From: Cloeon dipterum
Taxonomy: Eukaryota; Arthropoda; Insecta; Ephemeroptera; Baetidae
Reading direction: 5' to 3'
Assembly (NCBI RefSeq): GCF_949628265.1
Contig: NC_088789.1
Location: 1,984,001-2,048,000 of the forward strand
Length of the DNA stretch: 64,000 bases
Each line of letters begins with the position of its first letter. The stretch's first letter is position 1. Below the pieces are notes generated by a model. The model saw only the letters and a program-made list of their open reading frames with translations, was not told the DNA's origin and made no database searches. A program made the translations under genes and the position numbers. This document shows positions 42,415 to 63,038 of this stretch, one piece after another.

Positions 42415-43155
42415 ATGACGTCGAGCGTGACCGATTTGTGCCGCCTATGCGGCACAGACACCTTCAACATAGTGCGGCATCATATTTTTGAAGCCGAAAG
42501 CTTGGCTAAATGCATAGCCAAAAAGATCGCCGAATGCCTACCTGTGAACGTGAGTTTGCCGTCTTTTAGTTTGCAACTCAAATTCTTGATTGCTCTCGTC
42601 CTCAACAGGTCACACCGCAGGATCGGCTTCCTAAACACATGTGCGGCGAATGCGCGTACAAACTGGACCTGCTGAGCGAGTTCAGAGACAAAGCCGTCAA
42701 GACTGAGCATCTCCTCGAATCCCTGGTGGATGGGGTCAAGCCTGAGGTCAGTTGTTCGGATTCTCTGTGTTGATATCAGCTGTCTTTATTTACAAACAAC
42801 TCACGGGTCATCGTGTTCTATCATTTTTGCAGATATTAGAGAATGAAGAGCCTGACAATGACTTGGGAGCCGACGACGGCTTTCGGTCGGACAGTCCGGA
42901 TCAGCCAGAGCCGGAAGTGCTGATCAAAGAGGAGGATGCGGAACCACGTCCGGAGAGGAGACCCGTACGAAAGGCGGCTAGGAAGGTCGGAAGGCCGCGA
43001 GGCCGAAAGAGGAAACAGACTGAGATTGAGCCCGACACTGAGGAGGAGGTGGAATCCGAGGAGGCGCCCAAGAAGGCCGTTAAGAAGGAAGAAGCCCCTC
43101 CCAAGGTGTACAGGAAGCGCGGCCGCAAACCCAAGAATAACAAGGAGAGCCCAGG
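42415..43155 (+). CDS. Common 5' exons of a multi-isoform ZAD/C2H2 transcription factor locus
   Basis: Exons 42415-42549, 42609-42746 and 42833-43155 (phases 0,0, then 2) encode 198 residues plus GG of the next codon. Residues 9-85 form a ZAD, the zinc-coordinating dimerisation domain of arthropod C2H2 factors: cysteine pairs C9/C12 (CRLC) and C57/C60 (CGEC) with an intervening helix-rich stretch. Residues 92-198 are an acidic then basic linker with two AT-hook-like patches (VGRPRGRKRK 143-152, KRGRKPK 186-192) and a possible SUMO site at K123 (IKEE). No zinc finger is encoded here. The donor AGCCCAGG|GTGAGT at 43155 leaves phase 2, which matches the 3' splice site of all twelve downstream cassettes. 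I infer one shared N-terminus spliced to alternative DNA-binding ends, as in lola and mod(mdg4). Confidence 0.87.
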
Positions 43156-43656
43156 GTGAGTGGCCTAACTTACCTTCTGCCTGCCTAAATCTATGTTTAG
43201 TTTGTTTTTGTCCAACAATGAAGAAAGAGGTAGTCAGGGTTTTCAGCTCGGGATCACAACATTGACGAGCGTAGCTAGCTTTTAAATCTACACAGGACGA
43301 TCGGGTGGACGCAGCTGGAGGGAAAAAATTAATTAATTTTTAATTAAATATGCCTCCACCCTTTTGGTCCTGCGCTTCATTAAAGTGTCAGGGACTCCCT
43401 TCTTGTATGCAGATACATCCCAGCCTTAGAATATTAAAGATCTTAAATTTTTTATGGCATGAAGCTGCTTGCCAAAACTGAAAATTAAATTAAAAATCGG
43501 GCTGTGAATATTAATTAGTTTTTGGGGTTTATTAAATTTACATCAAATGCTACAAATCGAAAGAAACGATAAACTCGCTCGGCACGGTTTCGCTCAAAGA
43601 CAAAGGTGGCAGGAGTGTGCAGGCAAAATGAGCTGACCGGTGGCTTGTGCTTGCAG

Positions 43657-44176
43657 GTGGGAGCGGCCGTTCGTTTGCCACATGTGCGGCCGCAGCTACC
43701 GCAGCAGCAGCCACCTGAGCGGCCACTTTAAAGTGCACCTGCCACCCGAGTTCAAGTGCGAGTTCTGCGGCAAACAATTCGTGTACAAGCGCCACTTGGG
43801 CCAGCACGTGGAGCGCCACTTGGGCGTGACGCACCAGTGCGAGGTGTGCGGCACGCACTTCAGCCAGTCCAATTCGCTGTCCACGCACATGCGGACGCTG
43901 CACTCGCAGATCGAGAAGCCGCTAGCGTGTGTCGTGTGCCTGAAACGGTTCGGCCGAGGCGAGGACCTCAAGCGCCACATGCGAATTCACACGAACGAAA
44001 AGCCGTACGCGTGTAACCTGTGCCAGTGGAAGTTCACGCAGTCGAGTCAGCTGCGCACGCACAAGATGGGCAAACACGGCATTATGCCTCACATTTGCGA
44101 CCTCTGCGGCCAGGGATTCCGAAACAAGCCGCTCTTCCGACAGCACTGTAAAGAGGCGCACCACAAATACATCTGA
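43657..44176 (+). CDS. Alternative terminal exon V1: six C2H2 zinc fingers
   Basis: Begins after the acceptor TGCTTGCAG|G (phase 2; GG+G = Gly), then WERPFVC; 172 residues then TGA, for a predicted isoform of 371 aa with the common exons. Six C2H2 fingers start at FVCHMC, FKCEFC, HQCEVC, LACVVC, YACNLC and HICDLC. Linker TNEKPY precedes finger 5, and GIMPH joins fingers 5 and 6. Finger 5 (KFTQSSQLRTHK) is close to that of V3, suggesting related DNA contacts. No ZAD and no well-placed start codon of its own. Poly(A) signal AATAAA at 44291-44296. Confidence 0.87.
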
Positions 44177-44495
44177 AAGTGACCAATAATGATGTTGAGA
44201 GGATTTTGATATCCATTTTATATTTCAAACTAAGTGGACCATGTGTCAAAAATGTCAGTATCCTACAAACAAGCATTACCTAGTCGATTTAATAAAATAA
44301 CAATAAAATGTTTTGTAATTATCCTCTTTTATTTGATTTATTTTATTAATTTACCACGAAATTAATTTAGTCAAACTGCACTTAAAATTACAAATACCGC
44401 ACTTGAACCTATTTTCGTCGAATTATCTCGAGTGACACCTTCGGCTGGTCTAGAATATCCCCTCTGAAAAATTGCTTTGCCCTTTGTACGTTGAG

Positions 44496-45374
44496 TGACC
44501 AAAATCTAAAGCGAGCGCTGTTCGGCAGTGAGGAGGATCAGCATTGGGACTCGAGCTGGAAACGCTTCTTTCCTGACCTGGGCGCCACGCGCATTCGCAA
44601 CCGCAGCAGCAGCACCTCAGAGCGCAAGCCCCTGTCGAGAGATCCGGTGCCCATGACTTGCGACATTTGCGGAAAGACGTACGCTGGCGAGTTCAAGCTG
44701 CAGCGGCACCGCACGCGACACTTTGCGCCGGAAAAACCCGCAATATGCGAGGTAAAATGTTGCCGCCGTTAACCAAAATCAGCAATCCAGTTTTGATTAG
44801 AAATTTAAAATTAATTGATTGCTGTGTTCAAGTATTTGGGGAAAAAATAACCAATTCCGGTCCGAACCGCCAGGTCTGCGGCAAGGTGTGCATGGACAAG
44901 GGCAGCCTGCGGCAGCACCGCTTCATTCACCAGGACCGGCGGTACGAGTGCGACTTCTGCAAGCGGCGCTTTGTGATGAAAGGGGCCGTGCGCGAGCACG
45001 TGCGCACGCACCTCGAAGACCGCACTTTCATTTGCAAGGAGTGCGGCGCCGGCTTTAAAGTGGACCGAACGTTGCGCAGCCACATTCAGAACGTGCACAA
45101 AAACGTCAACAACGACCCGCAGACGTGCAAGCTGTGCGGATTGGTGTTGAACAACAAGCGCTGCCTGGAGAGGCACCTCCGCACGCACTCTGGCGAGCGG
45201 CCGTACGCGTGCGATCTGTGCGAGGCGCGCTACGGCTACCGGAACAGACTCGTTTCGCACAAGATGTCAGTGCACAAGATCATGCCGCACAACTGCAAAC
45301 ACTGCCCCATGGGCTTCAGAGTGCGCCGTGACCTCTTGGGGCACAGCCTTGAGGTGCACGGAATCCACGTGTGA
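44496..45374 (+). CDS. Alternative terminal cassette V2: seven C2H2 fingers in two exons
   Basis: Two exons, 44496-44751 and 44874-45374 (phase 0 between them, spliced ICE-VCGK). The acceptor ACGTTGAG|T is less canonical than the others, but the phase is again 2 (GG+T = Gly). A 53-residue acidic/basic lead-in (LFGSEEDQHWDSSWKRFFPD) precedes the first finger MTCDIC, which is unique among the twelve cassettes. Seven fingers follow the C2H2 spacing, with SGERPY before finger 6 and KIMPH before finger 7. Predicted isoform 450 aa. The intron inside finger 2 has a weak polypyrimidine tract (GAACCGCCAG), yet only its removal keeps the frame. AATAAA at 45497-45502. Confidence 0.78.
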
Positions 45375-45829
45375 AAATAAGGCTGATCGGCCGAGATTTT
45401 AAAACATTTTGCCATTGATCTAACAGAGATCTGTTGTAAATAACTCGCTATATCGACCTGAGTGTTACGATACTCAAGATTTTATCTCAGATTTAAAATA
45501 AAACTCCATAGTTTCTTCAAGAAACGTATTTATTTTGTATGCCTTCGTAAAATTCTAAAACAAGCAGAAAAACAGATTTTTTATTTGAAATAAATATTTA
45601 AAAAATATTATTAATAGAAATTTTCGTTTTATTACCATAGGAAAATTAACAAAAGGAAACGATAAAATGAATAAAAATGCTAAAACGTACCTCTAAAAGA
45701 ATTACAAAATAAATTTTTGTTTTTGTGGTGCAGAGGAAATTTTTCACAGTGACTTGGAGCAAATAAATATAAAGCTTTTTACAATCAATCCAATTCACCA
45801 GTTGCGTAAGCTCTGGGTATTTGAATCCA

Positions 45830-46012
45830 GTAATAGATGACGGCAGTGGTTTCTTTCGATTTTAAAGATTTAAGACTCACTGCGCATTCTATTTCTTAAA
45901 TTTTTGCTCTTGGCGAGCTGTAAACAGAAACAAGGCCAGCCATTCGCCGTAGAAACGTCGGATATGAATTTTTTTAAAATGGCTTGACTGATTTTGGTTT
46001 TCAGCACATTGG
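45830..46012 (+). repeat. Dispersed repeat Rep5, copy 2
   Basis: Resembles 165-365 in the same orientation (GGCCAGCCATTCGCCGTA, TTTTTTTAAAATGG-like, GATTTTGGTTTTCAGCAC). It lies between cassettes V2 and V3. Confidence 0.45.
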
Positions 46013-46181
46013 AAGGATTTAGTCTAAAATCATAGTACCTAAATAATCGAAAGAATGCGTTGGCGCTATATTTTGGCGGCTTACGCAACTTGTGAATTAT
46101 TTCTACCATGAATGTTCCGAATCAAAATTTGGGCGAGCAGCGGTATCAAAATATTAAAGGCGTTTGTGTCGGCGTTCGCAG

Positions 46182-46692
46182 GGTGTGCGACGTGTGCGGC
46201 AAGCTGTGCCGGACGGAGCGGCTGCTGCAGCGGCACCGCGTCACGCACTTCCCGCAGACGCACTCGGCGGTAGAGTGCGCGTTGTGCGGCGCCACGTTCC
46301 ACGGGCGCCGCTTTATCGAGTCTCACATGCGCGTGCACGACTTTTGCGCCGCCAAGTGGACGTGCGAGCTGTGCGGCGCCACGTTCAAGGGCAAGCAGGC
46401 GCTGCAGCGCCACCAGCGCGCCATCCACCTCAAGGACAAGAGCGACCACACTCCGTGTCCCGTGTGCCGTAAGCTGATGCCCGGCAAGTACCACATGCAG
46501 CGCCACATGAGAACGCACACAGGCGAAAAGCCGTACGCTTGCGATTTGTGCGAGTGGCGTTTCGCGCAGTCCAGCCAGCTGCGCACGCACAAGATCTTCA
46601 AGCACGGCGTCATGCCGCACACGTGCCGCCTTTGCAACGCCGGCTTAAGGTCCAAGGCAGCGCTCAACAAGCACAGAGAGCAGTTCCACTGA
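46182..46692 (+). CDS. Alternative terminal exon V3: six C2H2 zinc fingers
   Basis: Acceptor GCGTTCGCAG|G, phase 2 (Gly), then VCDVCGKLC; 169 residues to TGA, isoform 368 aa. Six fingers start at RVCDVC, VECALC, WTCELC, TPCPVC, YACDLC and HTCRLC. TGEKPY precedes finger 5 and GVMPH finger 6. Finger 5 contact helix (QSSQLRTHK) equals that of V1. An in-frame ATG at 46108 would allow a short independent protein, but the splice site and phase fit the shared pattern better. No canonical AATAAA within about 400 bp downstream; ATTAAA variants are present. Confidence 0.85.
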
Positions 46693-47779
46693 CATTAAAA
46701 ATTGTGATAGTTCGGTGTACTGAGATTTTTACAAACAATTTAATGAACACTACAAAAAAGCCAGTTGCTTGTGTTTCAAGCCACAAGTTGGAAACACCGT
46801 CAACTTGCAAGTTAATTGCTATTGGCACTAAATTATAACTTTACTGACTGAGCATTCCATGTTTATGGGAAAGGCTCTATAGATCTTGAAATTTAAATTT
46901 TTAAATTAAATTCAGCTACCTCTATAAACATAGAGCTTTTTTCTGCATCACTACAGAATACAGAAGTTTCCCTTGTTAATTTCAGGATTGCATTTAGTTA
47001 AAACCACCCGGTATATTTCAGCACTGATATATGTACCACTCAATTTTTACTAATTTCTTACGCATGAAATGCCATCTTTAAATTGTTTCCATTTTCCGGT
47101 GAAAATCTAAAATTTGCGGTCGGAGTAGTCAAAATTTCCTCTTCTGTGCGTTTTTTTTTTTATTTTAAATTGTCATTATTAGCTGCCTCAACTTCGCCAA
47201 TAATTTCTCTGACAATTTATCAAGTCGAGGTCATGAGCTAATAAGTAGAGAATTATTGAAAACTGTGGTGCAAGAAACTGATAAAAATGGAAAAAACGGG
47301 GCTTACCACTGCACTACATTTTTTTAAATGCGGGTATATTGCAATTCTAGCAAATTTATTGATGCTGAACTGTTTTGAACCTTTGGTTGGAGCCCTAATT
47401 TAAAAGCTAATTCCTGTTCCGTCTGAGGATTGAGAACAACTCGAAGCGTTCTGAACTTACCAAGGCATTGATTATGTTCATAAATCTGGAAACATTTTAG
47501 AGCACTATAATTTACATAATGTGATGGCTAACGATTTGCGTAATTAGTGAGTAAAAAATACAGGAATAATATAAGGTGGCATTTAAGTCGATATAATATT
47601 AACCATGAAATCTTTTAGAATCTAACTCTGCCCTGATTATTTTATGGTGCATGTAAGCGAATACAAAATATGAAAAAAATGTCTCGAGGTGACGGACATA
47701 TTGTATATTTTGACGGAAAGCAGGAAACGCAAATGGGGTCTAGAAGGAAGACACGTCTAATGGCCGTGTCTGTTCGCAG

Positions 47780-48392
47780 AAAGCGGGTGTGGGCGGCGTG
47801 CGACGTGTGCGACAAGTTGTTCCGCAAAGGGTCGAACCTGCGCGACCACCGCCTCAGCCACTTTCCCGAACTGCGCGCGTGCGTATGTGAATTGTGCGGC
47901 AAGACGTTCCAGGGGAGCCGCGGCCTCGACCAGCACCGCGCCATCCACTTTCCGCGCAAGTTCGCGTGCGACCTTTGCGGCAAAGCGTTCACGCGCAAGC
48001 CCAAGCTGACGGAGCACATGCGCGCGCACCTGCGCATCAAGTCGTTCCAGTGCGAGCACTGCGCGCGCTGCTTCACGCTCAACAACGGCCTCAAACGGCA
48101 CATCGCCAACGTCCACACCTGCAAAAAGAAGTCCTTCGAGTGCCCGCTGTGCGGCATCACGGTGTCCCGCAAGTGCCACCTCGAGCGCCACATGCTGACG
48201 CACACGGGCGAACGGCCCTACCCATGCGACCTCTGCGACATGAAGTTCACGCAGGATTGCATGCTCAAGAGCCACAAGATGAACGTGCACAAAATCATGC
48301 CCTACGCGTGCCGCTCGTGCGACGCCTCCTTTAAGATCAAGTTGGAACTGGTCGACCACTGCGTCGCAGCCCACAATTTATATACCATTTGA
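47780..48392 (+). CDS. Alternative terminal exon V4: seven C2H2 zinc fingers
   Basis: Acceptor CTGTTCGCAG|A, phase 2 (GG+A = Gly), then KRVWAACDVC; 203 residues to TGA, isoform 402 aa. Seven fingers: AACDVC, CVCELC, FACDLC, FQCEHC, FECPLC, YPCDLC and YACRSC. TGERPY lies before finger 6 and KIMPY before finger 7. The final residues are NLYTI. An in-frame ATG lies upstream at 47670, 37 codons before the acceptor, so an independent start cannot be excluded. AATAAA at 48485-48490. Confidence 0.86.
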
Positions 48393-48569
48393 ACGATAAA
48401 TAAGTGGATGAATTGACAAAAGCGTTTGATACTCTTAATTATAACAATGGCAAGACTGAACAAACGGCTATGTAAATACTAGTAAATAAATTGACATTCG
48501 AAAACAAAGTAATTTGCATTTATAAGGAAACGTTGGATTGGGAATCTCAAGTGGGAATTTAGCAAAAAC

Positions 48570-48960
48570 GAATCATGAGCGCCGGGGCCAGGTTGCGATC
48601 TGTGTTGGTTCCCGCCGGTCAGAAGTGAATATGGCGTCCAAATAATGGAGGCCAATCAGGAGACAGTCCAGCGGCCAATCAGACGCGTCAAAAAAGAGGC
48701 GTGCCGACCTAATAATTTCATTCCCGCGCATTTTGTTACATTTCCATTGGCCTGATGGGCCATCTAACGGTCGATCCGCCAATTACCTGGCTAATCAGCT
48801 GTTAGTAAAGAAATATTAACAAAAATATTCATTGTTCTGAAGGTATTTTCATGATAAATTTTCCAAGAAAATTTCATTTTACGTTTGAAACTCTCCCGCC
48901 GTACTCTACCAGACGTCATGTCTGATTGTCGCGTGAATCCGGCCCCCGTTGCCAAAAATT
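48570..48960. promoter_or_regulatory. Candidate internal promoter between V4 and V5
   Basis: A CpG-rich patch in otherwise AT-rich DNA. GGCCAATCAG occurs twice (about 48649 and 48673), an inverted CCAAT (CCATTGGCC) lies near 48748, and CGCCAATTA near 48778. A GAATATGGCGTCC box resembles YY1/Pho sites. Such clusters are typical of insect housekeeping-type promoters. Its place just upstream of V5 would suit a separate start site feeding trans-splicing or an alternative first exon. This is inference from motifs only. Confidence 0.35.
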
Positions 48961-49162
48961 TCAATGGAACTTGTTTTTAAAAGTCGGGCTTATTATTTAT
49001 TTTGACTTTTTCAGTTAAATTAACAGGCCTCAGATAAAAGTAATTAAAACAGGTGAAGAGCCGCATGAAAAAAACTGTCAAGCAGTCTGTGCTGAATGCA
49101 ACGCGTTCAAAACGGAGAGCAATGAGGCGACTGGTTAGTTGATGGTCACGCGTTGCTTTCAG

Positions 49163-49826
49163 GTGCCCGACGTCCGCCGAGAAGACGCGCGAGGCAAATA
49201 GCGAGGCGGGCGGCGGCGCCGAACCGGGCCTCAAGTGTCCGCACTGCGGCCTGGCGGCGGCCACGCGGGAGCAGCTGCAGCTGCACGTGCGCCAGGGCTG
49301 CTCGGCGTGCACGTTCATTTGCGAGTTGTGCGGCAAGCACGTGCGCAGCGTCAAGGCGCTCGTGCGCCACCGCATCGTGCACTTTCCGAAAACGCTCGAG
49401 TGCGACTTCTGCAAACGCACCTTCCATCACAAGGAAACCATCTCGAAGCACGTGCGCACGCACATGAACGTGCGGCCCTACCAGTGCACCTACTGCACCA
49501 AGAACTTCAAGCACGCCAACATCCTGAACGACCACATCAACGTCGTCCACATGGGCATTACCAAGGACGCGTTTCCGTGCGTCGCCTGCTCGCGCACCTT
49601 CTGCCGCCGCAGCCACCTCGAGCGCCACATGCGCGTGCACACGGGCGAACGCCCTTACGAATGCACCGTGTGCAACGCCAAGTTCGCGTCCAGCTACAAT
49701 ATGCGCGCGCACCGCGCCTCCGTGCACAAAATCATGCCACACGTGTGCTACGTCTGCCGGTTCGGCGCGCGCACGCGCCAGGCGCTCGCCGACCACTGCC
49801 TCGAGGCGCACGGCATGTATATTTGA
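49163..49826 (+). CDS. Alternative terminal exon V5: six C2H2 fingers plus a C2HC-like first finger
   Basis: Acceptor TTGCTTTCAG|G, phase 2 (Gly), then CPTSAEKTREANSEA, a 23-residue lead-in; 220 residues to TGA, isoform 419 aa. The first unit LKCPHC...LHVRQGC has Cys in place of the last His. Fingers start at FICELC, LECDFC, YQCTYC, FPCVAC, YECTVC and HVCYVC, with TGERPY and KIMPH at the usual places. No usable ATG precedes the fingers near the acceptor, which supports dependence on upstream exons. A Rep2 element starts 45 bp after the stop. Confidence 0.86.
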
Positions 49827-49870
49827 GCCTGGCGAAAAAAGTTGAAATTAAAACCAGTGACTGTTTTGGA

Positions 49871-50239
49871 GACTGTTTCTGTTTTCTGAGCACACCAACC
49901 GATTCTAGAGGGTCGAATTAGGTAAAGGGGATATTATTTCCGACCAAAGAGTCCTGCGCGACGTGCGAACTTTTTTTCCCGCCAAAACAATATGAATGCG
50001 AGAACTGCGCATGCGTCAGAGGGGGTTTGAGCACTTGCCTGGACGAATGGCTTCTTTGTCAGATCCCGCCAGCTCTGACGCATGCGCACTTCTCGCAATC
50101 AATTGTTTCGGCGGGAAAAAGTTCTACTTGTGCTACGCACGTCGCGCTGCACTTTCAGGTAGGAAAAAAACCATTTTACCTAATTCGACCCTCAAGAATC
50201 GATTGGTGCGCTCTGAACTTTGTCAAAGACGGTCTTTAA
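49871..50239. repeat. Palindromic DNA element Rep2, copy 3
   Basis: Inverted arms sharing GGGTCGAATTAGGTAAA, GCGACGTGCGAAC and GCGCATGCGTCAG with copies 1 and 2, and ending GACGGTCTTTAAC. The left terminus has diverged. It lies in the 3' flank of cassette V5. Confidence 0.75.
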
Positions 50240-51167
50240 CTGTTTTAAGCTTTTTCTTTAGATACAATGTTAATTTTAGAGCATTATGAGTAAATCAAGT
50301 CAAACTAAACATCTCATGGAAATATCAATAATTCACCAAAGAAGTCCTGAGATCAAAACTAGATGTTTCCATTGCTATATTGTAATTTTCATATAAGATT
50401 TTAACTTAAATCTGTAATATAAAGGGCACGAGAGGGCCAGATTTGATTTTTAGAAATTTAGTATACCTGTCGAATTGTATGGTCTAAAAATTTAAATTCA
50501 GCTGAGTAGACGTTGTGAATTTTGAACATCCTCTCAGCTTCTTCATGTTGAATATAAATGTGAAACAAATCATGATATTTTTCTAAAAAAGAAAGAAATC
50601 ATAATATGCTAAATAAAGCTGGAAAATCCTAAATAGATTGCATTTTCTGTTCTGTTGCGCAAGCAATACTAAGCTCTTGTTCTTCAATGAGAGCTAGGAT
50701 TCCCTGAATTTAATTTGGAATTTTTATATTGAAAATTACTGCCATTCAGGAGCCTGATAATATAATATTTTAAATTAAATTAATCCAAATACAAGCGATT
50801 AATTAATTAACTAAATGGGTTTCATAACGGTTTAAGAATTTAATTAGAAATTGTTTCAATAAAGGTGGGTGGTCAAGGTTAAAATTTTAATAAAAAATCT
50901 CGCGCTCTTTGATTGGACATCAGTTATTGTTTACTGCCTCCAAGGGCTCGGTACTTCTGCTTCTGGGAGATAAAAAAATGCGAAAGACTCACTATCAGCA
51001 GCTGAGTTTGTTATAATTAAAATCTGGAACAAACTGAGGCTATAATATTGCCCTCTCAGTTCTGACTTAAACAATAATTATTGTACTAACAAGCCAGCAT
51101 GCAATCGAAACGGGCGCCGCAGCAGCGTGAGAGAGAAGACGCTGACCACGCTTTGCTCTGTTGGCAG
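50240..51167. other. Intronic spacer between V5 and V6
   Basis: AT-rich and non-coding; no supported feature apart from the V6 acceptor region at its right end. Confidence 0.55.
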
Positions 51168-51828
51168 ATGGCAGTGCCCGCGATGCTGGCGCACGTTCAG
51201 CACGCGGAGTCTGCTGCGCGAGCACCAACTGGGCCACAAGTCGGGCGACGCGGCCGCGGCGGCCGGCAACGCCATGTGCGACGTGTGCGGCAAGCAGTTC
51301 TCGGCGCGGCGCCTCGTGCTGCAGCACCGGCGGGCGCACTTCGCGTCCGAGCGGCGCTACACGTGCCACTTCTGCGGCGTGGCCTACCTGCACAAGTACC
51401 AACTGCGCGACCACATGATGACGCACCTCGACCTGCGCACCTTCCAGTGCGAGGTGTGCGCCGAGACGTTCTCGCACCCGGCCAACCTGCGCCACCACTA
51501 CAAGCGCCACCACCTGGCGGCGCCGCTGCAGAAGCGCCACAAGTGTCCCTACTGTCCGAAGCGCTTCCAGGCGCCGGCGTCCGTGCGCCGCCACTTGGTC
51601 ACGCACACCGGCGAGCGGCCGTACGCGTGCACGCAGTGCGACAAGTATTACCAGCACGTGGACAAGCTCAACGACCACAACATGCGCGTGCACAAGCGCA
51701 TGCCCTACGTGTGTCCCGTCTGCGCGGCCGGCTTCCGGCTGCTCAAGGAGCTGGCCGTGCACTCGTACCAAGAGCACCAGGTGCAGACCGTCGACCTGCA
51801 GCGCGCCCGCACCACCAACGCTACCTAA
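51168..51828 (+). CDS. Alternative terminal exon V6: seven C2H2 zinc fingers
   Basis: Acceptor CTCTGTTGGCAG|A, phase 2 (Gly), then WQCPRCW; 219 residues to TAA, isoform 418 aa. First member of a related sub-cluster V6-V10 sharing a first finger with C-x-x-C-W, a finger 2-3 segment H-R-R-A-H-F-A-S-E-R-R-Y, and the last finger CPVC..GFRL.KEL. Fingers start at WQCPRC, AMCDVC, YTCHFC, FQCEVC, HKCPYC, YACTQC and YVCPVC. TGERPY precedes finger 6 and KRMPY finger 7. The tail is QTVDLQRARTTNAT. Third codon positions are extremely GC-rich. AATAAA at 52041-52046 is the nearest canonical signal. Confidence 0.88.
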
Positions 51829-53531: not shown

Positions 53532-54177
53532 ATGGAAGTGCCGCACGTGCTGGATGACCTTCGAGAGTAAGGAGGAACTGAAAGAGCACAAGAAGGTGCA
53601 CAAGACCTCGGAGGTCTCGGCGATGTGCGACATTTGCGCCCGCCAGTTCAAGACCAGGGAGGTCATGTACCAGCACCGGCGCTTGCACATCGCCTCGGAG
53701 CGCCGCTTCGCTTGCCACTTCTGCGGCATCGCGTTCCTGCACAAGTGCGTGCTGCGCAACCACATGCACGTGCACTTGGACAAAAGCTACCTGCAGTGCG
53801 AGTACTGCGCCGCGTCGTTCACGCACCCGCGCAGCCTCAGCCGCCACATCAACGACATGCACATCAGGGGCGCCCCGGAGAAGAAGTACGCGTGCACCTA
53901 CTGCACGCGCCGCTTCACCGCGCCCATCCACCTCGAGCGACACATGCGCACGCACACCGGCGAGAAGCCCTTCCCGTGCGAGCTCTGCGAGATGTCCTAC
54001 TCGCGCGAGGACAAGCTCAAGGAGCACAAGTACAAGGCGCACCAGCTCATGCCCTACACCTGCCCAGTGTGCAGCAAGGGCTTCCGCCTCGTAAAGGAGC
54101 TCGTCTCGCACTCGTTTGAGCTGCACGGCGTCCACGCGTACGACATGTCGCGAAAACGCATCATTACCAAGCCTTAG
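53532..54177 (+). CDS. Alternative terminal exon V7: seven C2H2 zinc fingers
   Basis: Acceptor CTCTGTTGGCAG|A, phase 2 (Gly), then WKCRTCW; 214 residues to TAG, isoform 413 aa. Fingers start at WKCRTC, AMCDIC, FACHFC, LQCEYC, YACTYC, FPCELC and YTCPVC. TGEKPF precedes finger 6 and QLMPY finger 7. Its last two fingers and tail (AYDMSRKRIITKP) are nearly those of V8, its closest relative, but recognition-helix residues in fingers 1-4 differ. No ZAD. Independent initiation from in-frame upstream ATG is possible but lacks support. Confidence 0.88.
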
Positions 54178-54728
54178 AGACTCGAGTGAATAATACGTCG
54201 ACAAAGTGATGTTGATTTTTGTTTCTTTTCTAAAAACGGCGGGAAAATGGTGACATCTCTTTACTGTAAAGCGCACAGAATAAGCTGAGAGATTTTTAAA
54301 TTTTAGTTAACCTAAAACTACAAACTTTTGTTTTTTAAATCTTTTATTATTGAACACTAGTAACTTAATTTTTTAACTCGAGATTGATCCTGAAGCACGT
54401 GAGCAACGCAGCCAACTGCAAATTAGAAATAAGATATTATGTATACTCTCGCATGAAACTGCACACGCTCTTGCCAACTAAGTATTTACAAAAATATGTA
54501 AAGCTGGACAGAAAGGAAGTCCGCTTAACTGATTTGCCATAACATATATTTGTACAATTTTTTAATTTTAATCCGCCCCCAGAAGGCGCGGTATTGTAAC
54601 AAAGGAACACTCGCAAACATTCCACTCGCGCACTGTTGACTAACTAACTCGATTCAGTTATAATTTGCCACACGATTGATTGAATTCACATTGACTAACT
54701 GTGCTGTGCCATTCAGCTCTGTTAGCAG

Positions 54729-55377
54729 ATGGCAGTGCAGGACGTGCTGGAACACGTTTCCCACAAAGGGCGCGCGCGATTACCACAGCCAGCAGCAGCA
54801 CTCGGACACGCGGCTGACGGCCATGTGCGAAATCTGCTCGAAAGAGTTCAAAACTCGCGAGGCGCTGCGCTACCACCGGCGGCTGCACATCGACTCGGAG
54901 CGCCGCTTCGTCTGCAACTTCTGCGGCATCCGCTTCGTGTTCAAGCACCAGCTGCGCGACCACATGTACGTGCACCTGAACGTGCGCGACCACCAGTGCG
55001 AGTTCTGCGCGGCGCTCTTCTCGCACCCGCACAGTCTGCGCAAGCACATCCAGTACCACCACGGCAAGGGCCGGCCCGAGCGCAAGTACGCGTGCACCTA
55101 CTGCCACAAGACGTTCCCGGCGCCCACGCACCTCGAGCGCCACGTGCGCACGCACACCGGCGAGAAGCCGTTCCCGTGCGGCCACTGCGAGCTCAGCTAC
55201 TCGCGCGAGGACAAGCTCAAGGAGCACCAGCTCAAGGCGCACCAGCTCATGCCCTACGTGTGTCCCGTGTGCAGCGCCGGCTTCCGCCTCGTCAAGGAAC
55301 TGGTCACGCACTCGTTCGAGATGCACCAGGTGCACGCGTACGATATGTCGCGCAAAAGGATCACCACCAAAGATTGA
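54729..55377 (+). CDS. Alternative terminal exon V8: seven C2H2 zinc fingers
   Basis: Acceptor CTCTGTTAGCAG|A, phase 2 (Gly), then WQCRTCW; 215 residues to TGA, isoform 414 aa. Fingers start at WQCRTC, AMCEIC, FVCNFC, HQCEFC, YACTYC, FPCGHC and YVCPVC. TGEKPF and QLMPY linkers. Tail AYDMSRKRITTKD. Finger 1 has an H-x4-H end. Sister of V7 (shared finger 6 helix SREDKLKEH), separated from it by 551 bp. Confidence 0.88.
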
Positions 55378-55733
55378 GAGCCCTGAATGTCATTTTGCTG
55401 CCATATTTCAGTATTCGAGCTGGAACTTTATTTTTAATTTTATTGAAAAATTATTTCAAATAGTGGGAAAATACCCTGTTAATACCTAAAAGCACAAAAA
55501 TCGATGCTATTTTATTTATCAACCCGACTCTTGTAATGATTTGCTTGCTTTTGCAGCAAATTCACGATTTTACTGCTTTAATTTTGCCAGCTAATGTGAT
55601 TTTTTTAATTCTTATTTGTGTTTTAGTGTGCCATTTCCGCCAAAATTATTATAAACCTCAAAAGCAAGAGGTTGTAAAGCCTAGTGACAAATTTGCACAG
55701 AAATTTAACCGCGTGTGATGCCTCTGTTGGCAG

Positions 55734-56397
55734 ATGGCAATGCAACAAGTGCTGGGAATTGTTCGGAACGCGCGGCCTGCTGGTCGCGCACCGCAAGCAG
55801 CAGCACCAGATGGAGCGCCGCGAACCGCTGACCGCCATGTGCGAGATCTGCTCGAAAACGTTCAAAAACCGGTCGCAGCTGCGCGTGCACTTCCGGCTGC
55901 ACCTCGACTCGCAGCGCGTGCACAAGTGCGACTTCTGCGGCATCACGTTCATGTTCAAGAACCAAATGCAGAACCACATTTACGTGCACCTCGGCGCCAA
56001 GGAGCACCAGTGCGAGTTCTGCGCGCGCACCTTCGCCCACCCCGCCAGCCTGCGGCGCCACGTGCGCTTCCACCACCTGAACAAGCGGCCGGAGAAGAAG
56101 CACGCGTGCCACTTGTGTCCGAAGCGGTTCACCGACCTGTTGCCCCTGCAGAGGCACATCCGCATTCACACCGGGGAGCGGCCGTTCGCCTGCGAGATCT
56201 GCGACTCGCGTTTCTCGCGCGACGACAAGCTGCGCGAGCACCAGTTGCGACACCACGACGTGATGCCGCAGCGCTGCGTCATGTGCGGCGCCGGCTTCCG
56301 ACTGGTGCGCGAGCTGGTCGCCCATTCCTTCGAGGTGCACAAGGCCCACCTGTACGACCTGTCGCGGCAGAAGCAGCGCCTCGTCACCCGGCCGTGA
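55734..56397 (+). CDS. Alternative terminal exon V9: seven C2H2 zinc fingers
   Basis: Acceptor CTCTGTTGGCAG|A, phase 2 (Gly), then WQCNKCW; 220 residues to TGA, isoform 419 aa. Fingers start at WQCNKC, AMCEIC, HKCDFC, HQCEFC, HACHLC, FACEIC and QRCVMC. TGERPF precedes finger 6 and DVMPQ finger 7. Finger 5 helix TDLLPLQRH differs markedly from the APxxLxRH of V7, V8 and V10. Tail HLYDLSRQKQRLVTRP. AATAAA occurs about 17 nt after the stop. Confidence 0.88.
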
Positions 56398-57603
56398 AAC
56401 CCGGCAAAAACAAAAATAAAGTGCTGACGAATTGTGAACAAAATAATGAAAGTATTAATTTTAGCTGGTTAGGTTTTACTTTGGACAGTAACTTTTTGTA
56501 TAGCTTTTTACTCGAGTTTTATTGAAACGACGCTCTCTGATTGTGAGATACAATAAAGTAGCATTTCTTTTCAAGTAAAATTGTTAATTTTTTATTAAAT
56601 GGACGCAACCAAACCGTGGTGAAATCAGCTGGTGGTGTAAAATTTCAGCAGATCCTACTGAGTAGTTTTTATTCTGTATTTTCTATTTTTGAGGCCTACC
56701 ATCCCATAATTTTTTTTAGAAATTTGATTATATTAGGGTTCTGAACGGTAAATAAATCAGCAATTGGTGAAGAACAAATTAAGCAAATAAAATAAACGGT
56801 CCTCTCTAGACTTGGATATGAAAAAGGGAGTGATCCAAATTTTAAATAATATCATTGAAATTCAATCTAGGGCATTGAAAACATGAAAGGGCTTTAAACG
56901 AGGGTAATTTTTTTAAATTACTGCATTCTTGCTAGGCTTAATAGCTTGATTGTAAATTAATCAATGAGAACATTGAAAAGAGAAGCAATATTTTATAGTT
57001 ATTGGGCAATTTTTTAATTATATAAATTAGCAAAACATCGTTGCTTCTTCCCTAAAATTTTGCAGTGTTCCAAAAATGCCGGCTTTTTAAAGATAATTTT
57101 GACCAAGCCGGATTAGCAAAAATTAAAAGTAAAGCAAATAAAATAAAATAATTGAAGCATAAAATAGACACTTACCTTGAATTTTAAAATTAAAAATTGG
57201 GTCAATACAAAAAAATAAAATCTTAACGCAGTGTTTCAAAGGCATTTAACAACCTTTTTTAGCCATAAATCCAAACCAATTAAAAAAAAACATTTATACC
57301 GCCAAAAATTGCCTGGTTTTGACAACCCTGGCTTAAAACTGCTGGTCAAATTTTGGAATATTGAAATTTTTTAATTCCTGCACTTCCCTTGCAATTTATC
57401 TCGACATTAAAATAAAAATTAATTTAAACTTTCAATTTGCATTGCATACTATCAAAAATTGGGTTAAAAAATCGATTCCGTTAGTAAAGGACTCGGTACA
57501 GTCTCATATTTGAAGCATTTTGCGTAAAAATAAACGGCAAAAGCAGCAGCAACCGCAGACACACTGCCTGTATGACTGATGCGTGGGTCCGCTCTGTTAG
57601 CAG
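56398..57603. other. Intronic spacer between V9 and V10
   Basis: 1.2 kb of AT-rich DNA. I see no exon, repeat or promoter-like patch apart from the V9 3' UTR at its left end. Confidence 0.55.
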
Positions 57604-58261
57604 ATGGCAGTGCTTCAGGTGCTGGTTGATTTTTCCGACGCGCCGCCAGCTGGCCCAGCACCGGCAGCAGGAGCACCAGAAACGCGGCGAGGCGGACGGC
57701 ACCGAGACGACCGCCATTTGCGACGTCTGCGGCAAGGAGGTGCGCTTCCTCACGCAGCACCGGCGGGCGCACTTCGCGTCCGAGCGGCGCTACCAGTGCC
57801 ACTTCTGTGGCATCTCGTACCTCTACAAGTGTCTGCTGCGCGACCACATGATGACGCACCTCGACGGACCGGCTTTCCAGTGCGAGATCTGCGCCATGAC
57901 GTTCACGCACCGCGCCAACCTGCGCATGCACAACATCCGCAAGCACATGCAGGTGCCGGTCGAGAAGAAGCACCTCTGTCCGCACTGTCCGAAGCGCTTC
58001 CGCGCGCCCAACCTGCTCAACCGCCACCTGCTGACGCACACGGGCGAGAAGCCGTGCGTGTGCCACGTGTGCGGCAAGGCGTACCAGCGCGAGCACCAGC
58101 TGCAGTACCACCAGATCAAGAAGCACCAGCTCATGCCGCACAACTGCCCCGTGTGCGGCCAAGGCTTCCGTTACCAGAAGGAGCTGATCGCGCACTCGGT
58201 GCAGGCGCACCAGACCTACGTCGTCGACAAGTCGCGCCCCAGGCACACGCTCCTGCCCTAA
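57604..58261 (+). CDS. Alternative terminal exon V10: seven zinc fingers, finger 2 shortened
   Basis: Acceptor CTCTGTTAGCAG|A, phase 2 (Gly), then WQCFRCW; 218 residues to TAA, isoform 417 aa. Fingers start at WQCFRC, AICDVC, YQCHFC, FQCEIC, HLCPHC, CVCHVC and HNCPVC. Finger 2 is CDVCGKEVRFLTQHRRAH, with nine instead of twelve residues between Cys2 and His1, so its recognition helix is cut and DNA contact by this finger is unlikely. TGEKPC and QLMPH linkers. Closest to V6 in fingers 2-3 (HRRAHFASERRY, RDHMMTHLD). Tail VVDKSRPRHTLLP. Confidence 0.87.
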
Positions 58262-59313
58262 ACACCGCGCTCTCAATGTTAGCAAAATATTTCGTTTTTA
58301 TTCAAAACTGCAGATTGAATGTCAGAATTTTAACGAAGGATTAGGATTATATATTTGATTTTTTTAATTTTTTTGGGCTAATCCATTTAGAGAAAAATTG
58401 TTCATAGTCTGGAAATAAAAGGCGCGGACATAATTTGCAGGAACAGTGAGCGTTTTTTTTAATTTCGAACTCTAATTGTATATAATCACTTTCCATTACA
58501 TTTTATCAAATTAAGGGAGAGGCATTGCAGGCAACAGACCATTTTGAGTAATTAGGAAAATCTATAATGGCTACAAAATTTCTCATAATTTAGAACACCC
58601 AGCAAACTATTAGACTGTTTGTTTCTAATCAATGCTGGAATTATTTGGGAAATCGAAGGTTAGCTATATTTTTTATAATTTATTCTCAAATTTATCATGT
58701 TGCTTGACAAGGAGAGTTTTTTGCCTGTGATTTTGTATTATAGTTAGCAAATAGATAAATTTCGGGATTATAAAAAGATCTGAACTAAAACACTAAGCTA
58801 AAATAAGTATACCCCTCTAATTTTAATTGCATTTGATTTCAAATTTCTAACGAACAAGTTTTTAGATTTATTTAACTCTAATTTTTTGATGAACTCTAAA
58901 ACAGTTGTTGAGTCATTAACTTAATTTTGTAATGAGTATGCCAGCATATTTAGAAAATGAAAAAACCCAAAGCAAAGAGTGAATTCACTTACAAAAGACT
59001 TATTCATGACTATTTATCATTTGCAACTTGTTGGTAAACTACTGAGTACCACAGTTAATTCGAAGAGTTTTATACCTTATCTCGTACCGTAATTTAGACA
59101 CAGTCGCAACGACGACTATTTTGCGCCCAATTCCTGTCGAAATGCGTTAAAACCTATCAACTATTGTGATAAAATTTTGTAAAAAAATGGATCAATCGCA
59201 AAATGAATTTTTATTGTACTTTTTAAAGACACATAAACGGGTGCAAAAGAGAGAAAATTACGAATATTAATAAAAAAAAAAAACAATCGACATATTTCAC
59301 CTCTACTAAATTA
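58262..59313. other. Intronic spacer between V10 and the Rep2 relic
   Basis: About 1 kb of AT-rich DNA without a supported feature. Confidence 0.55.
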
Positions 59314-59462
59314 TTTAAAGACCGTCTTTGGCGTAGTTTCTGAGCACACCAATCGTCGCGCTGCACTTTTTGGTCGGAAAAACCTCATTTTTACCTAATT
59401 CGACCCTGAAGAATCGATTGGTTTGCTCAGAAACATGGTCAATGAAGATCGATTGCTTTAAA
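59314..59462. repeat. Palindromic DNA element Rep2, copy 4 (internally deleted)
   Basis: 149 bp starting TTTAAAGACCGTCTTTGGCG and ending GATTGCTTTAAA. The right arm is largely kept (ACCTAATTCGACCCTGAAG), but most of the left arm and the whole centre are missing. It lies 30 bp upstream of an in-frame ATG for cassette V11. Confidence 0.7.
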
Positions 59463-59686
59463 TTCAATTTTTATTAAAAGAAATCGTGATAAATGTCCAA
59501 TAAAAAGAATTTAAGAAAATATTTTGACATCCCCGCTAACTCATCACATTCATCCTTTTTGTTTGCGATGACGAGTCGAATTAAAGCTGCTTCAACCCAA
59601 AAACGTTGCCAAAGAGTGAGTTGGGAGAGCGAGCAGAAGAACCGCCACTTGTGCCGTGCTAAATTGCCGCCCTGGTCGTGTTGCAG

Positions 59687-60680
59687 GCGCCGCTATGGGT
59701 GCTGCGGGCGGCGTTTCGCGTCGCAGCAGGCGCTGCGGCGGCACGCGTGCACGACGCTGCGGATGCTGACGTGCGACTTCTGCGGCCAGATGTACACCTC
59801 GCTCGAGGCCATCCGACGGCACGTACGGCGGCAGCACCTGCTGGCGCACGCGTGCCAGGCGTGCGCGGCGCGGTTCGAAAGCGCCAAGGGCCTGGAGCGC
59901 CACCGGCTGACCTGCCTGCCCGCCAGCTGTCCGCAGTGCCAGCAGAGCTTCCCGAGCGCGGCCGCCGTCGAGCGTCACGTGCGCTCGACGCACGAGGCGC
60001 GCTTCGTGTGCCGCTTCTGCGGCAAGCGCTTCGCGCTGCGCACCAAGCTGACGGACCACGAGCGCTCGCACACCAACGAGCGGCCGTTCGAGTGCGCGCT
60101 GTGCCCGGACAAGGCGTTCACCTCCAAGGCCTACCTGCTGGCGCACATGAAGCAGAAGCACGTGAAGCGCGAGGAGAGTCTCAGCTGCGACGTGTGCCTC
60201 AAGACGTTCGCCTCCATCAAGGGCCTGCGCAGCCACCGCGTCACGCACTTCGACGAGCTGAAGAAGTTCGTCTGCCGCATCTGCAAGGCCGCCTTCCACG
60301 CCCGGCACAACCTGGCCTCGCACCACCTGGTGCACACCGGCGAGAAGGCCTTCAGCTGCGAAGAGTGCGGAGCGCCGTTCACCCGCCGCTCCAGCCTCAA
60401 GGCGCACGTCAGCTTCAAACACAGCAAGGAGCTGGCCAGCCACGTGTGTCCCGAGTGCGGAAAGCGCTTCCCGCAGACGTCGCACCTCAAGAGGCACCTG
60501 CTCACGCACACCGGCGAGCGCAGCCACCTCTGCGACCTGTGCGGCAAGAGCTTCTCGCAGGTGGCGCATCTGCACACGCACAAGCGCCTCAGGCACAAGG
60601 TGCTGCCCTACGAGTGCGGCGTGTGCGGCCGACAGTTCAAATTGAAAACGGACTTGCTCACCCACATGGGCGAGCATTGA
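59687..60680 (+). CDS. Alternative terminal exon V11: about twelve zinc fingers
   Basis: Acceptor GTCGTGTTGCAG|G, phase 2 (Gly), then RRYGCCGRRFASQQALRRH, a degenerate first unit; 330 residues to TGA, isoform 529 aa. Eleven further units start at LTCDFC, HACQAC (ends H-x3-C), ASCPQC, FVCRFC, FECALC, LSCDVC, FVCRIC, FSCEEC, HVCPEC, HLCDLC and YECGVC. TGERSH precedes the penultimate and KVLPY the last finger, the family arrangement. The frame stays open upstream through the acceptor to ATG 59493 (65 more codons), so a ZAD-less independent product is possible. Nearly twice as many fingers as V1-V10 suggests a longer binding site. Confidence 0.85.
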
Positions 60681-61840
60681 TTGTGTAAACTCTGTATTCA
60701 TTTTAATTTTGCCATTTTGTGAAACTTGTAACGAGACTTAAATTTAAGCATAGTTTGCTTGCGAAACTCAGCCATCGATCTTCATGAATAAAATCAATAA
60801 AAAGTTGAATAAAGCAAATAGAGCATTTTTACGTATTTTAAATTAAAACACACATTTAAAACATGCAAGTTCCAAGTTTTTCCCATAATTTTTAAATTTT
60901 GATTTGTAATAAAATATGTATTTAATTCACATTGACACTTTCTTTTAATAATCGAAAACCTTTTCAGCTCCTGCAGCGATCCAGAGAGTATTTCAGTCAC
61001 AGGGAAATTTAAAATTTACTTTTGTCTATCACAGATAAAGCTTATTCTTTGTGATGCAATTCTAAGACATAGTTTACCTCACAGAATACAGAAGAAACTC
61101 AATCAATGCATAAATATGTCTTCCTCTTTGTGGTCTGTAAAATCATCCACAAAGTCATAGAAAAGCTTACGAGTGTTTAGAAAAAATGATAAATATAAAA
61201 TATTCATTTTTTTTAAATTTAAGTGTCACTGCTAACTTCACATTGCAAATCAAATCAACAATACATCGTTATAGGCTGTTTAACTTTGTTCCACATTACT
61301 AAAGAGAAACTCGCAGAATTTTAAAGGGGATGTAATCAGTTACAGAATATTAAAAATAAAAAAATAAAATAACAACTGATACTAGTAATCGACTCAGATT
61401 GCATTTTTCATTGACAAAATCACCATCGACGCAACCCATAACATGCGCCTCATCATTTTATTTTCCACCCATTCCTTTAAATATAAAAATTAAAATCTTT
61501 CGATTAAATTTCCTGCCAAAGTATTGAAGCGTTTAAAAGAACTAACAATTACTAGTTTATTTTCTTAACACCAAAGAAATTAATATTTATGAGTTTGAGT
61601 TATTCTAACTTGATAATGTATCGAATATTCAACAGTATTATTTATAAATAAAAAATTTGGTTTTGACAAAATGTATTTTTCCTATTAAAGGTAGTTTATA
61701 TTTTTATTTTTGATCTAAATTAGGATTTTTTCACAAAGTAGATTTGAGTGATTTGCCTGATTTGTGGCGTGGCGGAGGTAGCGCTCTGCACGCAGCACAC
61801 CCTGATACACTGGGCGTTAACGCGTGCGTGGCTGTTGCAG
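60681..61840. other. Intronic spacer between V11 and V12
   Basis: 1.16 kb of AT-rich DNA including the V11 3' UTR (AATAAA near 60787-60797). No supported exon. Confidence 0.55.
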
Positions 61841-63038
61841 AGGCGACGTCGACAAGGAAGAGAAGGAGGCGGCGGTGCAGCCGGCCGAGGTGGATCGGCT
61901 CGAGGCGCTGGACGCGCTGACGTGCGACGCGTGCTTCAAGCCATTCCACACGCTGCCCGACCTGAAGCGCCACTTGCGTTCGCACGCGAAGCGCATCACG
62001 AAGCGGCCGACGCCGTGCCCGTACTGCCGGCAGCGGTTCGCGCTGCGCTGCGTGGAGCGGCGGGTGCACATCGAGCGGTGCCACCCGCCGCGCTTCAAGT
62101 GCGACGACTGCGAGTACGTGGCGCGCTCGCTCGGCGACCTCGAGGAGCACTTCAAGGCGCAGCACGCCGTGCAGGTGCGCGTGCGCCGCGAGTTCTTCTG
62201 CGACCTGTGCCCGGGCCGCAAGGCGTACCTGAAGCGCCGCAGCATGCGCGAGCACTTCCAGCGACGCCACCTCAAGCTGAACGTGTGCCAGCACTGCGGG
62301 CGCGCGCACGGCAGCCCGGCGGCGCTGCTGGTGCACGAGCGGCTGCACACCGGCGAGCGGCCGTACGTGTGCGAGATGTGCGGCCGCGCCTACCACAACG
62401 CGTCCAGCCTCAACATGCACAAGCACTCGTACCACCGCGGCGACGCCAACCGCCGCGCCCCGCAGGACCGGCTCGTGTGCCAGCTGTGCCAGGAGCGCTT
62501 CCTCACGCTGGAGGCGGTGCGCGAGCACCTCGAGTCGGTGCACGGCGTCATGCGCGGCGACTCGGCGCGCGAGCGCGGCTTCGAGTGCGAGGTGTGCCAC
62601 AAGCGGTTCACCGCGCTGCAGACGATGCGCGACCACATGCTGCTGCACCGCGGCGAGCGGCCGCACGAGTGCCACATCTGCAACAAGCGCTTCACCACGC
62701 GCAGCGTGCGCAACAAGCACGTCCTCGTGGTGCACCAGGGCATCGACGAGCGCCGCTTCGCCTGCTCGGCGTGCGGCAAGCGCTTCGTCAACCGCCACAA
62801 GCTGACCGTGCACGAGCGGCTGCACACCGGCGAGCGGCCCTTCACCTGCGAGGTCTGCGGCAAGACCTACACCAACGCCAGCCGCGTCAAGGAGCACAAG
62901 ATGGCCGTGCACAAGATCATGCCCTACAAGTGCGACAAGTGTCCCAAGGAGTTCAAGGTCGGCTCGGAGCTGCGACTCCATCAGCTGGTGCACGCGCAGC
63001 TGCCGCAACCGCCGCCCCCGCAGCCGGTGCAAATGTGA
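61841..63038 (+). CDS. Alternative terminal exon V12: about twelve C2H2 zinc fingers
   Basis: Acceptor TGGCTGTTGCAG|A, phase 2 (Gly), then GDVDKEEKEAAVQPAEVDRL, an acidic lead-in; 398 residues to TGA, isoform 597 aa, the longest. Units start at LTCDAC, TPCPYC (extended His spacing), FKCDDC, FFCDLC, NVCQHC, YVCEMC, LVCQLC, FECEVC, HECHIC, FACSAC, FTCEVC and YKCDKC. TGERPF precedes the penultimate and KIMPY the last finger. The tail is a Pro/Gln-rich QLPQPPPPQPVQM. Very GC-rich. AATAAA at 63187-63192. Its acceptor lies 18.7 kb from the common donor at 43155, the longest splice in the locus. Confidence 0.87.

Follow-up and report, generated by a model that had tools for sequence, protein, structure and literature searches.

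A putative complex transcription factor gene of Cloeon dipterum with one ZAD head and at least 13 alternative zinc-finger ends

The locus that opens at position 42415 of the 64,000-nucleotide stretch of Cloeon dipterum DNA analyzed here (the window; NC_088789.1, positions 1,984,001 to 2,048,000) is very probably one complex transcription factor gene, in which a ZAD head would be spliced to one of at least 13 alternative C2H2 3′ cassettes in a lola-like manner. Three constant exons would supply a dimerizing ZAD and a charged, presumably AT-hook-like linker, and each cassette would contribute a private set of C2H2 fingers and its own stop. A shared ZAD N-terminus with alternative finger ends had been proposed in the initial annotation of this DNA, and it is the reading that best fits the constant joining phase, the homology bounded by the acceptors, the tight gaps between cassettes, and the existence of a second locus.

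The constant ZAD head

The head consists of three exons on the forward strand. Exon 1 (42415..42549) carries the start codon and the first half of the ZAD, including the LCRLC zinc ligands, and ends in a phase-0 donor. Exon 2 (42609..42746), which is in phase 0 at both ends, carries the second half with the MCGEC zinc ligands, and exon 3 (42833..43155) encodes an acidic and basic linker and ends in the phase-2 donor AGG|GTGAGT. The three exons with one ZAD and the phase-2 donor at 43155 that the initial annotation had described were thereby borne out, both in their coordinates and in the GG|GTGAGT junction. Within the linker, GRPRGRKRK and KRGRKPK are segments that we take to be AT-hook-like, and IKEE presumably represents a SUMO-consensus-like site. 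When donor 43155 is left unspliced, read-through meets an immediate TGA, which may provide a built-in short form made of the ZAD and linker.

The ZAD of the head is complete, matching the Pfam zf-AD profile at 45.7 bits (cut-off, 28) over residues 8 to 83 and profile positions 1 to 74 of 75. When the head was scanned against Pfam at E values up to 0.1, zf-AD alone was returned, with no BTB domain. Searches with the zf-AD family and with the head itself as the query found no ZAD in the locus region other than that of the head, in agreement with the earlier statement that no cassette possesses its own; the family search is weak for ZADs split by introns, and the single-ZAD point therefore rests on the head-as-query search. 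Because the family search missed the head of the second locus, its list of 16 ZAD matches is incomplete. Isoforms built on this one domain would be expected to dimerize with one another.

The cassettes and their joining phase

Twelve cassettes follow the head on the same strand within the window. Cassette 1 (43657..44176) comprises a phase-2 acceptor, C2H2 fingers, and a stop. Cassette 2 (44496..45374) opens at a weak acceptor (ttgag) 320 bases past the cassette 1 stop and is divided into two exons, 44496-44750 and 44874-45374. Cassettes 3 (46182..46692), 4 (47780..48392), and 5 (49163..49826) are followed by five cassettes that share the acceptor motif CTCTGTTRGCAG, namely, cassettes 6 (51168..51828), 7 (53532..54177), 8 (54729..55377), 9 (55734..56397, opening 357 bases past the cassette 8 stop), and 10 (57604..58261), and then by cassettes 11 (59687..60680) and 12 (61841..63038); cassettes 5 and 12, like the others, run from a phase-2 acceptor in an open frame to the stop. 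Position 63038, which had been given as the end of the locus, reflects the limit of the window; a 13th cassette on the same strand lies past it (L009:1010-1913 and 2491-2847), with L009:1010 corresponding to window-equivalent position 64010. The earlier count of at least twelve factors thus stands as a many-tail reading, and the number of possible factors rises to at least 13.

All 12 acceptors in the window were confirmed at the positions first listed, each preceded by AG and each in phase 2, and joining them to the head gave an open frame with a single stop in 12/12 cases. The description of twelve stop-ended cassettes accordingly holds, with the amendment that cassette 2 requires an internal intron. 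With GG as the last two bases of the head, each join encodes glycine (GGN), and a new cassette therefore needs a phase-2 acceptor alone. The head donor would be spliced to each of the acceptors.

A phase-blind acceptor scan placed the best AG in phase 2 in 13/13 cassettes, with the 12 in the window falling at the positions of the initial annotation. Among putative C2H2 exons at other ZAD loci, used as controls, phase 2 was obtained in 8 of 22, with 8 in phase 0 and 6 in phase 1 (Fisher P = 1.9e-4; P = 1.3e-3 with the related cassettes 6 to 10 counted once). The scan looks before the first finger, in the open frame, and its acceptor model is a consensus that was not trained on this genome. Its end point was the full finger pattern for the 13 cassettes and for the refetched windows of the second locus and a shorter Cys pattern for the 28-window scan described below. 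Control exons carried at least two regex-defined fingers, and were deduplicated by their first 50 residues; of the 17 loci scanned, 10 supplied such exons and 7 supplied none. Depth was uneven, with about 3 kb each at L004, L005, L007, and L008.

The boundaries of homology coincide with the acceptors in cassettes 6 to 10. Mean DNA identity among these five was 0.20 to 0.35 in the upstream bins, 0.95 at positions −12 to −1, and 0.79 and 0.68 in the bins at the start of the exon; identity leaps from background within the last 12 bases of the intron and runs on into the exon. The 16-base motif occurs five times in the 190-Mb genome, always at the acceptors of these cassettes, and its reversed control occurs 0 times. 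The duplicating unit would be the cassette, not the whole gene.

Joined isoforms contain 6 to 10 C2H2 fingers each (non-overlapping regex matches; 12/12 isoforms), and Pfam C2H2 matches were obtained in all three cassettes submitted (1, 8, and 12). The sets of recognition residues are distinct in 13/13 cassettes, which would be expected to direct the isoforms to distinct DNA targets. The cassettes have diverged to 24 to 66% protein identity. Values of dN/dS were 0.54 to 0.98 in the 9 cassette pairs computed, under extreme codon bias, and weakly support coding constraint. Rfam gave 0 matches at the gathering score, and a COX1 search gave one weak, broken match and no mitochondrial copy.

A second locus and other ZAD loci

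The head-as-query search revealed, about 100 kb downstream, a paralogous three-exon ZAD head whose exon phases equal those of the first and whose donor, GG|GTGAGT at C4:2146207, is identical to that of the first locus. Behind it lie 29 C2H2 ORFs, grouped from the matches listed, and this locus would represent another gene built on this plan. The top acceptor was in phase 2 in 25 of the 29 ORFs, the exceptions being L056, L062, L083, and L087. This number combines 17 ORFs from a first scan of 28 windows (17 phase 2, 6 phase 0, 4 phase 1, and 1 without a candidate), 7 of the 8 windows in which the ORF start had been missed and which were refetched from further downstream, and the first cassette (L053). 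All cassettes found at both loci lie on the strand of their head, at the second locus among the matches listed.

No comparable array turned up in the sequence read around other ZAD loci or among the C2H2 matches listed; in the sequence read, C2H2 ORFs numbered at most five per stretch, the maximum falling in a 10-kb stretch (L041). A third relative of the ZAD, at C4:28352408, was considered as a further array, and the 3.3 kb read there looks like an ordinary gene. A Drosophila lola BTB query gave 61 matches to BTB exons in this genome, the best at 60% identity. One BTB candidate, at 33.1 Mb of C3 (L012 and L092-L095), was considered as a lola positive control and appears to be a mixed cluster that includes an additional BTB-like exon; its top sites were in phases 0, 2, 0, and 2 in the four windows read. 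Because this candidate is mixed and its phases vary, the phase comparison stands without a positive control from a known locus.

Alternative readings and known systems

Several observations count against the main reading. The cassette acceptors obtain low consensus scores, with those of cassettes 2, 7, 10, and 12 below zero; cassettes 3, 4, 10, and 11 have upstream in-frame ATGs; four of the 29 second-locus ORFs have a top site outside phase 2; the dN/dS values lend constraint weak support; and no AATAAA or ATTAAA occurs between cassette 7 or cassette 8 and the next acceptor (one TATAAA follows cassette 8). Within 350 bases past the stops, 10 of the 12 cassettes have such a hexamer, which is not above shuffles (mean, 8.1; P = 0.19). 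It is rather unlikely, in our estimate, that the cassettes are transcribed from internal promoters of their own and joined in trans to a head RNA made apart from them, the mode of Drosophila mod(mdg4) and lola; trans-splicing at loci of this type is documented in insects (PMC4667647; PMC11426971). The weak acceptors and the special motif common to five of them would suit such a mechanism, as would the intron between the head and cassette 1 (43156..43656), where six AATAAA/ATTAAA hexamers were counted versus 1.1 expected from shuffles (P = 0.001) and which could end head transcripts early. The corresponding intron of the second locus holds 5 versus 2.7 expected (P = 0.11), and many poly(A)-like hexamers precede the distal cassettes. 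However, the placement of every tail found on the head strand would make splicing in cis enough, gaps of just 320 to 357 bases leave scant room for promoters, and a search for a Dscam-like docking site found no complement of 7 or more bases to the cassette 6-10 acceptor motif near the head (42200-43657).

A mixed locus, in which most cassettes are fed by the head but some (3, 4, 10, 11, or 13, the last being richer in AT) are genes of their own or nonfunctional exons, seems a little less probable still. In-frame ATGs, which would permit independent starts, are absent upstream of 8 of the 12 cassettes and present for cassettes 3 (one, at 46108), 4 (four), 10 (one), and 11 (two). Cassette 13 has a lower GC3 in its first exon (0.68, versus 0.85 to 0.97 in 11 of the 13 cassettes) and is, together with cassette 12, the most divergent (24 to 33% protein identity). 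However, the top-scoring acceptor is in phase 2 in all of these doubtful cassettes, and the shared exons themselves have a GC3 of 0.66.

Tandem C2H2 paralogues are common and descriptions of ZAD genes usually treat them as separate, which, with the ATGs at 4 of 12 cassettes, would speak for clustered, mutually independent zinc-finger genes that have lost the ZAD, kept private and possibly noncoding 5′ exons, and owe their phase to one ancestral intron. A strict scan for the private 5′ coding exons that would have favored this model (ATG to GTRAG, phase 2) detected none in 11 of the 12 gaps, and the single candidate in the remaining gap spans a trivial 2 bases. This result and the controlled phase scan rule the model out as the main reading, and it is highly improbable given that the 320- and 357-base gaps must also fit the preceding 3′ UTR, that phase-2 acceptors persist despite the divergence of the cassettes, and that both heads retain the phase-2 GG|GTGAGT donor.

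The reading of one ZAD head with many alternative tails has partial precedents. In Drosophila lola, C2H2 fingers are reported in 17 of 20 isoforms (PMC11426971), and by that account the two systems share constant 5′ exons with a dimerization domain and many alternative, mostly C2H2, 3′ ends. They differ in that the head is a BTB in lola and a ZAD here, and in that the present genome has two such putative loci. Drosophila mod(mdg4), for which at least 31 isoforms are described (PMC4667647), likewise combines a head that stays constant with many alternative tails; unlike the present locus, it has a BTB head, mostly FLYWCH tails, and some tails on the opposite strand. The mosquito ZAD-ZNF gene cucoid resembles this locus in its alternative last exons and has three isoforms differing at the 3′ end, the maternal one being the shortest, whereas the available description contains no full zinc-finger cassette array (PMC9810180; PMC6783274). 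Ordinary ZAD-ZNF genes, reported to number over 90 in Drosophila, follow a ZAD-plus-C2H2 plan (PMC5081699; PMC9810180) and have a ZAD each, whereas here a single ZAD serves many finger sets. A complete N-terminal zf-AD with C2H2 fingers C-terminal to it in 12/12 joined isoforms places the locus in the ZAD-ZNF family. By sequence anatomy, its constant head, many stop-ended tails, and single joining phase give it a lola/mod(mdg4)-type architecture, and the lack of a BTB domain in the head sets it outside the lola and mod(mdg4) gene families. The ZAD version had been thought not to be a standard described architecture, and we met none in the open-licence literature searched.

We tentatively suggest that a separate ZAD-based head-and-tail class of transcription factors may have arisen in this lineage, with two linked loci and up to about 42 tails. 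Cassette duplication would then replace gene duplication in zinc-finger expansion, GG|GTGAGT would make each join a glycine and each splice failure a ZAD-only product, and tails might be mixed in ZAD dimers or joined in trans. Keeping a single dimerization domain and multiplying the DNA-binding tails alone would be a different route to diversity, one that, if true, obliges every product to use a common partner-choice domain. The use of both BTB, in lola and mod(mdg4), and ZAD as heads suggests that a head with many tails is a recurrent solution, and a small stretch of DNA with two such loci could yield dozens of related gene regulators.

A probable shared head and its zinc-finger cassettes

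The window was placed on a 36.4-Mb contig (C4:1984001-2048000) of the 190-Mb genome, with an open reading frame upstream of the head that ends at ~41519 and that we take, from its motifs, to be an acyltransferase-like gene, and another past cassette 13 that is presumably a DEAD-box helicase-like gene. The head comprises three plus-strand exons (42415-42549, 42609-42746 and 42833-43155), joined to one another in phase 0 and ending in a phase-2 donor, GG|GTGAGT. Its 198-residue product contains a complete zf-AD (residues 8-83; 45.7 bits; E 7.8e-12), and a Pfam scan found no BTB in it. Against solved structures, the head gave weak matches to just two chains, CG2712 (6fp5; E 0.39) and LD15650p (7pok; E 0.9). 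The remainder beyond the ZAD is an acidic/basic linker with what we assume to be AT-hook-like and SUMO-like motifs. If the donor at 43155 is left unused, the frame reads GGG TGA and stops at once; every head-cassette join carries a glycine, because GGN encodes glycine with any first cassette base.

The initial annotation had placed at least twelve alternative zinc-finger ends behind this donor. In line with this, all twelve acceptors (43657-61841) proved to be AG sites in phase 2, and all 12 head-cassette joins stay open until one single stop, with cassette 2 requiring one internal intron. A thirteenth cassette lies past the window edge, with two exons; it opens in phase 2 at tatttcacag|G (position 1010 of the separately fetched stretch L009, window-equivalent 64010), and its stop ends at L009:2847. 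Predicted base-contact residues differ across all 13 cassettes, as counted with a regular expression that takes a few overlapping matches twice.

GC3 was 0.85-0.97 in 11 of the 13 cassettes, versus 0.66 in the head, the exceptions being the second exon of cassette 2 (0.57) and the first exon of cassette 13 (0.68). Several cassettes between 43657 and 63038 are overlain by long out-of-frame open reading frames. Perhaps biased gene conversion acts among the tandem copies. Minus-strand open reading frames at 46149-46322, 55626-55979 and 57484-57789, opposite cassettes 3, 9 and 10 and with two to three C2H2 matches each, were interpreted as mirror readings of these cassettes. An element at 49884-50217, whose 52-base inverted ends are 85% complementary and which also contains nested inverted repeats, is a putative MITE-like insertion between cassettes, and a likeness of it was seen by eye near 59320-59440.

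Phase and sequence at the cassette acceptors

To compare phase constancy with chance, all AG sites in the open frame ahead of the first finger were scored blind to phase against a general acceptor consensus. The top-scoring acceptor was in phase 2 in 13/13 cassettes and coincided exactly with the annotated position in all 12 window cassettes, whereas the 22 control C2H2 exons, drawn from the genome's other ZAD loci, gave 8, 6 and 8 top sites in phases 0, 1 and 2 (13/13 versus 8/22 for phase 2; Fisher P = 1.9e-4, or 1.3e-3 with cassettes 6-10 counted as one). Counting against this reading, the cassette acceptors score low on this consensus (highest 3.3, 4/13 negative), while controls reach 9.2.

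The alternative that the cassettes are private genes with their own 5' coding exons is opposed by their spacing, as the distance from one stop to the next opening is 320 bases between cassettes 1 and 2 and 357 bases between cassettes 8 and 9. A strict scan of the 12 gaps for exons running from an ATG to a phase-2 GTRAG donor, which leaves room for non-coding first exons, other donors and starts within a cassette, found no private 5' coding exon in 11 of them; the sole candidate, ahead of cassette 4, is two bases long. Between the acceptor and the stop upstream of it, the frame contains no ATG in 8/12 cassettes (1, 2, 5, 6, 7, 8, 9 and 12) and at least one in 4/12 (3, 4, 10 and 11).

Mean pairwise DNA identity among cassettes 6-10, measured in 12-base bins around the acceptor, was 0.20-0.35 in each bin from -120 to -13, rose to 0.95 at -12 to -1, and then fell to 0.79 at 0 to 11, 0.68 in the following bin and 0.46-0.57 deeper. 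Homology therefore begins just ahead of the splice site and not in an upstream exon or promoter. The element kept at these acceptors is CTCTGTTRGCAG|ATGG; CTCTGTTRGCAGATGG stands at 51156-51171, 53520-53535, 54717-54732, 55722-55737 and 57592-57607 and is unique to these sites in the genome, CTCTGTTRGCAGRTGG has five genome occurrences, every one at this locus, and the reversed pattern has none. The intronic acceptor bases of cassettes 6-10 are thus better conserved than the coding sequence after them, which suggests a regulated splice choice. The remaining cassettes show a weaker likeness in the -12 to -1 bin (0.52 versus 0.24-0.31 elsewhere). No complementary docking site of at least 7 bases was found near the head.

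AATAAA or ATTAAA lies within 350 bases of 10/12 cassette stops, no more than in shuffles; cassettes 7 and 8 have neither ahead of the next acceptor and may use poly(A)-like sites further downstream. The intron behind the head (43156-43656) holds six such hexamers versus 1.1 in shuffles (P = 0.001, a post hoc observation), which could point to transcripts that end early and give a ZAD-only form, or to an aid to trans-splicing.

A second array and other related loci

Genome searches that used cassette 8 and the ZAD as queries unexpectedly revealed a second array. Its head (C4:2144524-2146207) has the same three-exon layout and phase-2 donor, GG|GTGAGT, and is paralogous to the first, with 59% and 64% identity in its two ZAD exons and a partly kept linker (EPEVLIKEE, KRGRKPK). 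The intron behind this head holds five AATAAA/ATTAAA hexamers versus 2.7 in shuffles (P = 0.11). Behind the head on the same strand, to ~C4:2216442, 29 C2H2 open reading frames were grouped among the matches listed, and in their starts, the part that was read, the top acceptor was in phase 2 in 25/29. The exceptions are L056, where the AG within the preceding stop codon scores highest and a phase-2 site comes next; L062, with phase 1 at 1.3 and phase 2 at 1.0 and 0.3; L087, with phase 1 at 2.0 and a phase-2 site at 0.0 matching the phase-2 sites of L086 and L088; and L083, whose top site is in phase 0 and which is possibly the second exon of the cassette before it. Pooling both loci gave phase 2 in 38/42 versus 8/22 controls, with a P value of ~1e-5 that overstates independence because many cassettes are related.

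No such array was seen at other ZAD loci among the matches listed, in the stretches read (several of ~3 kb). A third relative of the head, at C4:28352408-28359744 (59% and 69% identity per exon), looks from 3.3 kb read like an ordinary multi-exon ZAD gene and is a candidate ancestral form. A one-strand cluster of C2H2 open reading frames lies at C5:29261363-29300247, with no zf-AD near it among the matches listed.

Relation to known loci and proposed mechanism

In the excerpts of the sources cited here, lola has a BTB head and 20 isoforms (PMC11426971) and mod(mdg4) a BTB head and at least 31 (PMC4667647), both partly trans-spliced, while the ZAD-ZNF gene cucoid has three isoforms, which differ at their 3' ends (PMC9810180, PMC6783274). 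The excerpt of PMC10547256, which deals with the evolution of metazoan zinc fingers, refers to ZAD-ZNFs and not to such a locus, and no ZAD-based head-and-tail locus was found among the titles and abstract starts listed, a set with few subscription papers and no database annotations. The logic of the locus, a constant head with many tails, is like that of lola; it is not lola, because its head lacks a BTB, and the protein class of its products is ZAD-ZNF. What appears new is the ZAD in place of the BTB, the head-and-tail kind of locus being already known.

From the anatomy of this one genome, we consider it very likely that the head is common to several cassettes, and hold views on the number of cassettes used, and on cis versus trans splicing, with less confidence. 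One pre-mRNA, or a head RNA together with tail RNAs, would be the template of splicing; the one donor would be joined to any one of many cassettes, with the message end set by 3' processing after the chosen cassette. All products would then have one ZAD in common and differ in their fingers. ZAD dimerisation is documented, and a preference for homodimers is mentioned as unpublished data, in the excerpt of PMC5081699. With a common ZAD and varied fingers, both homodimers and heterodimers among the isoforms would therefore be expected.
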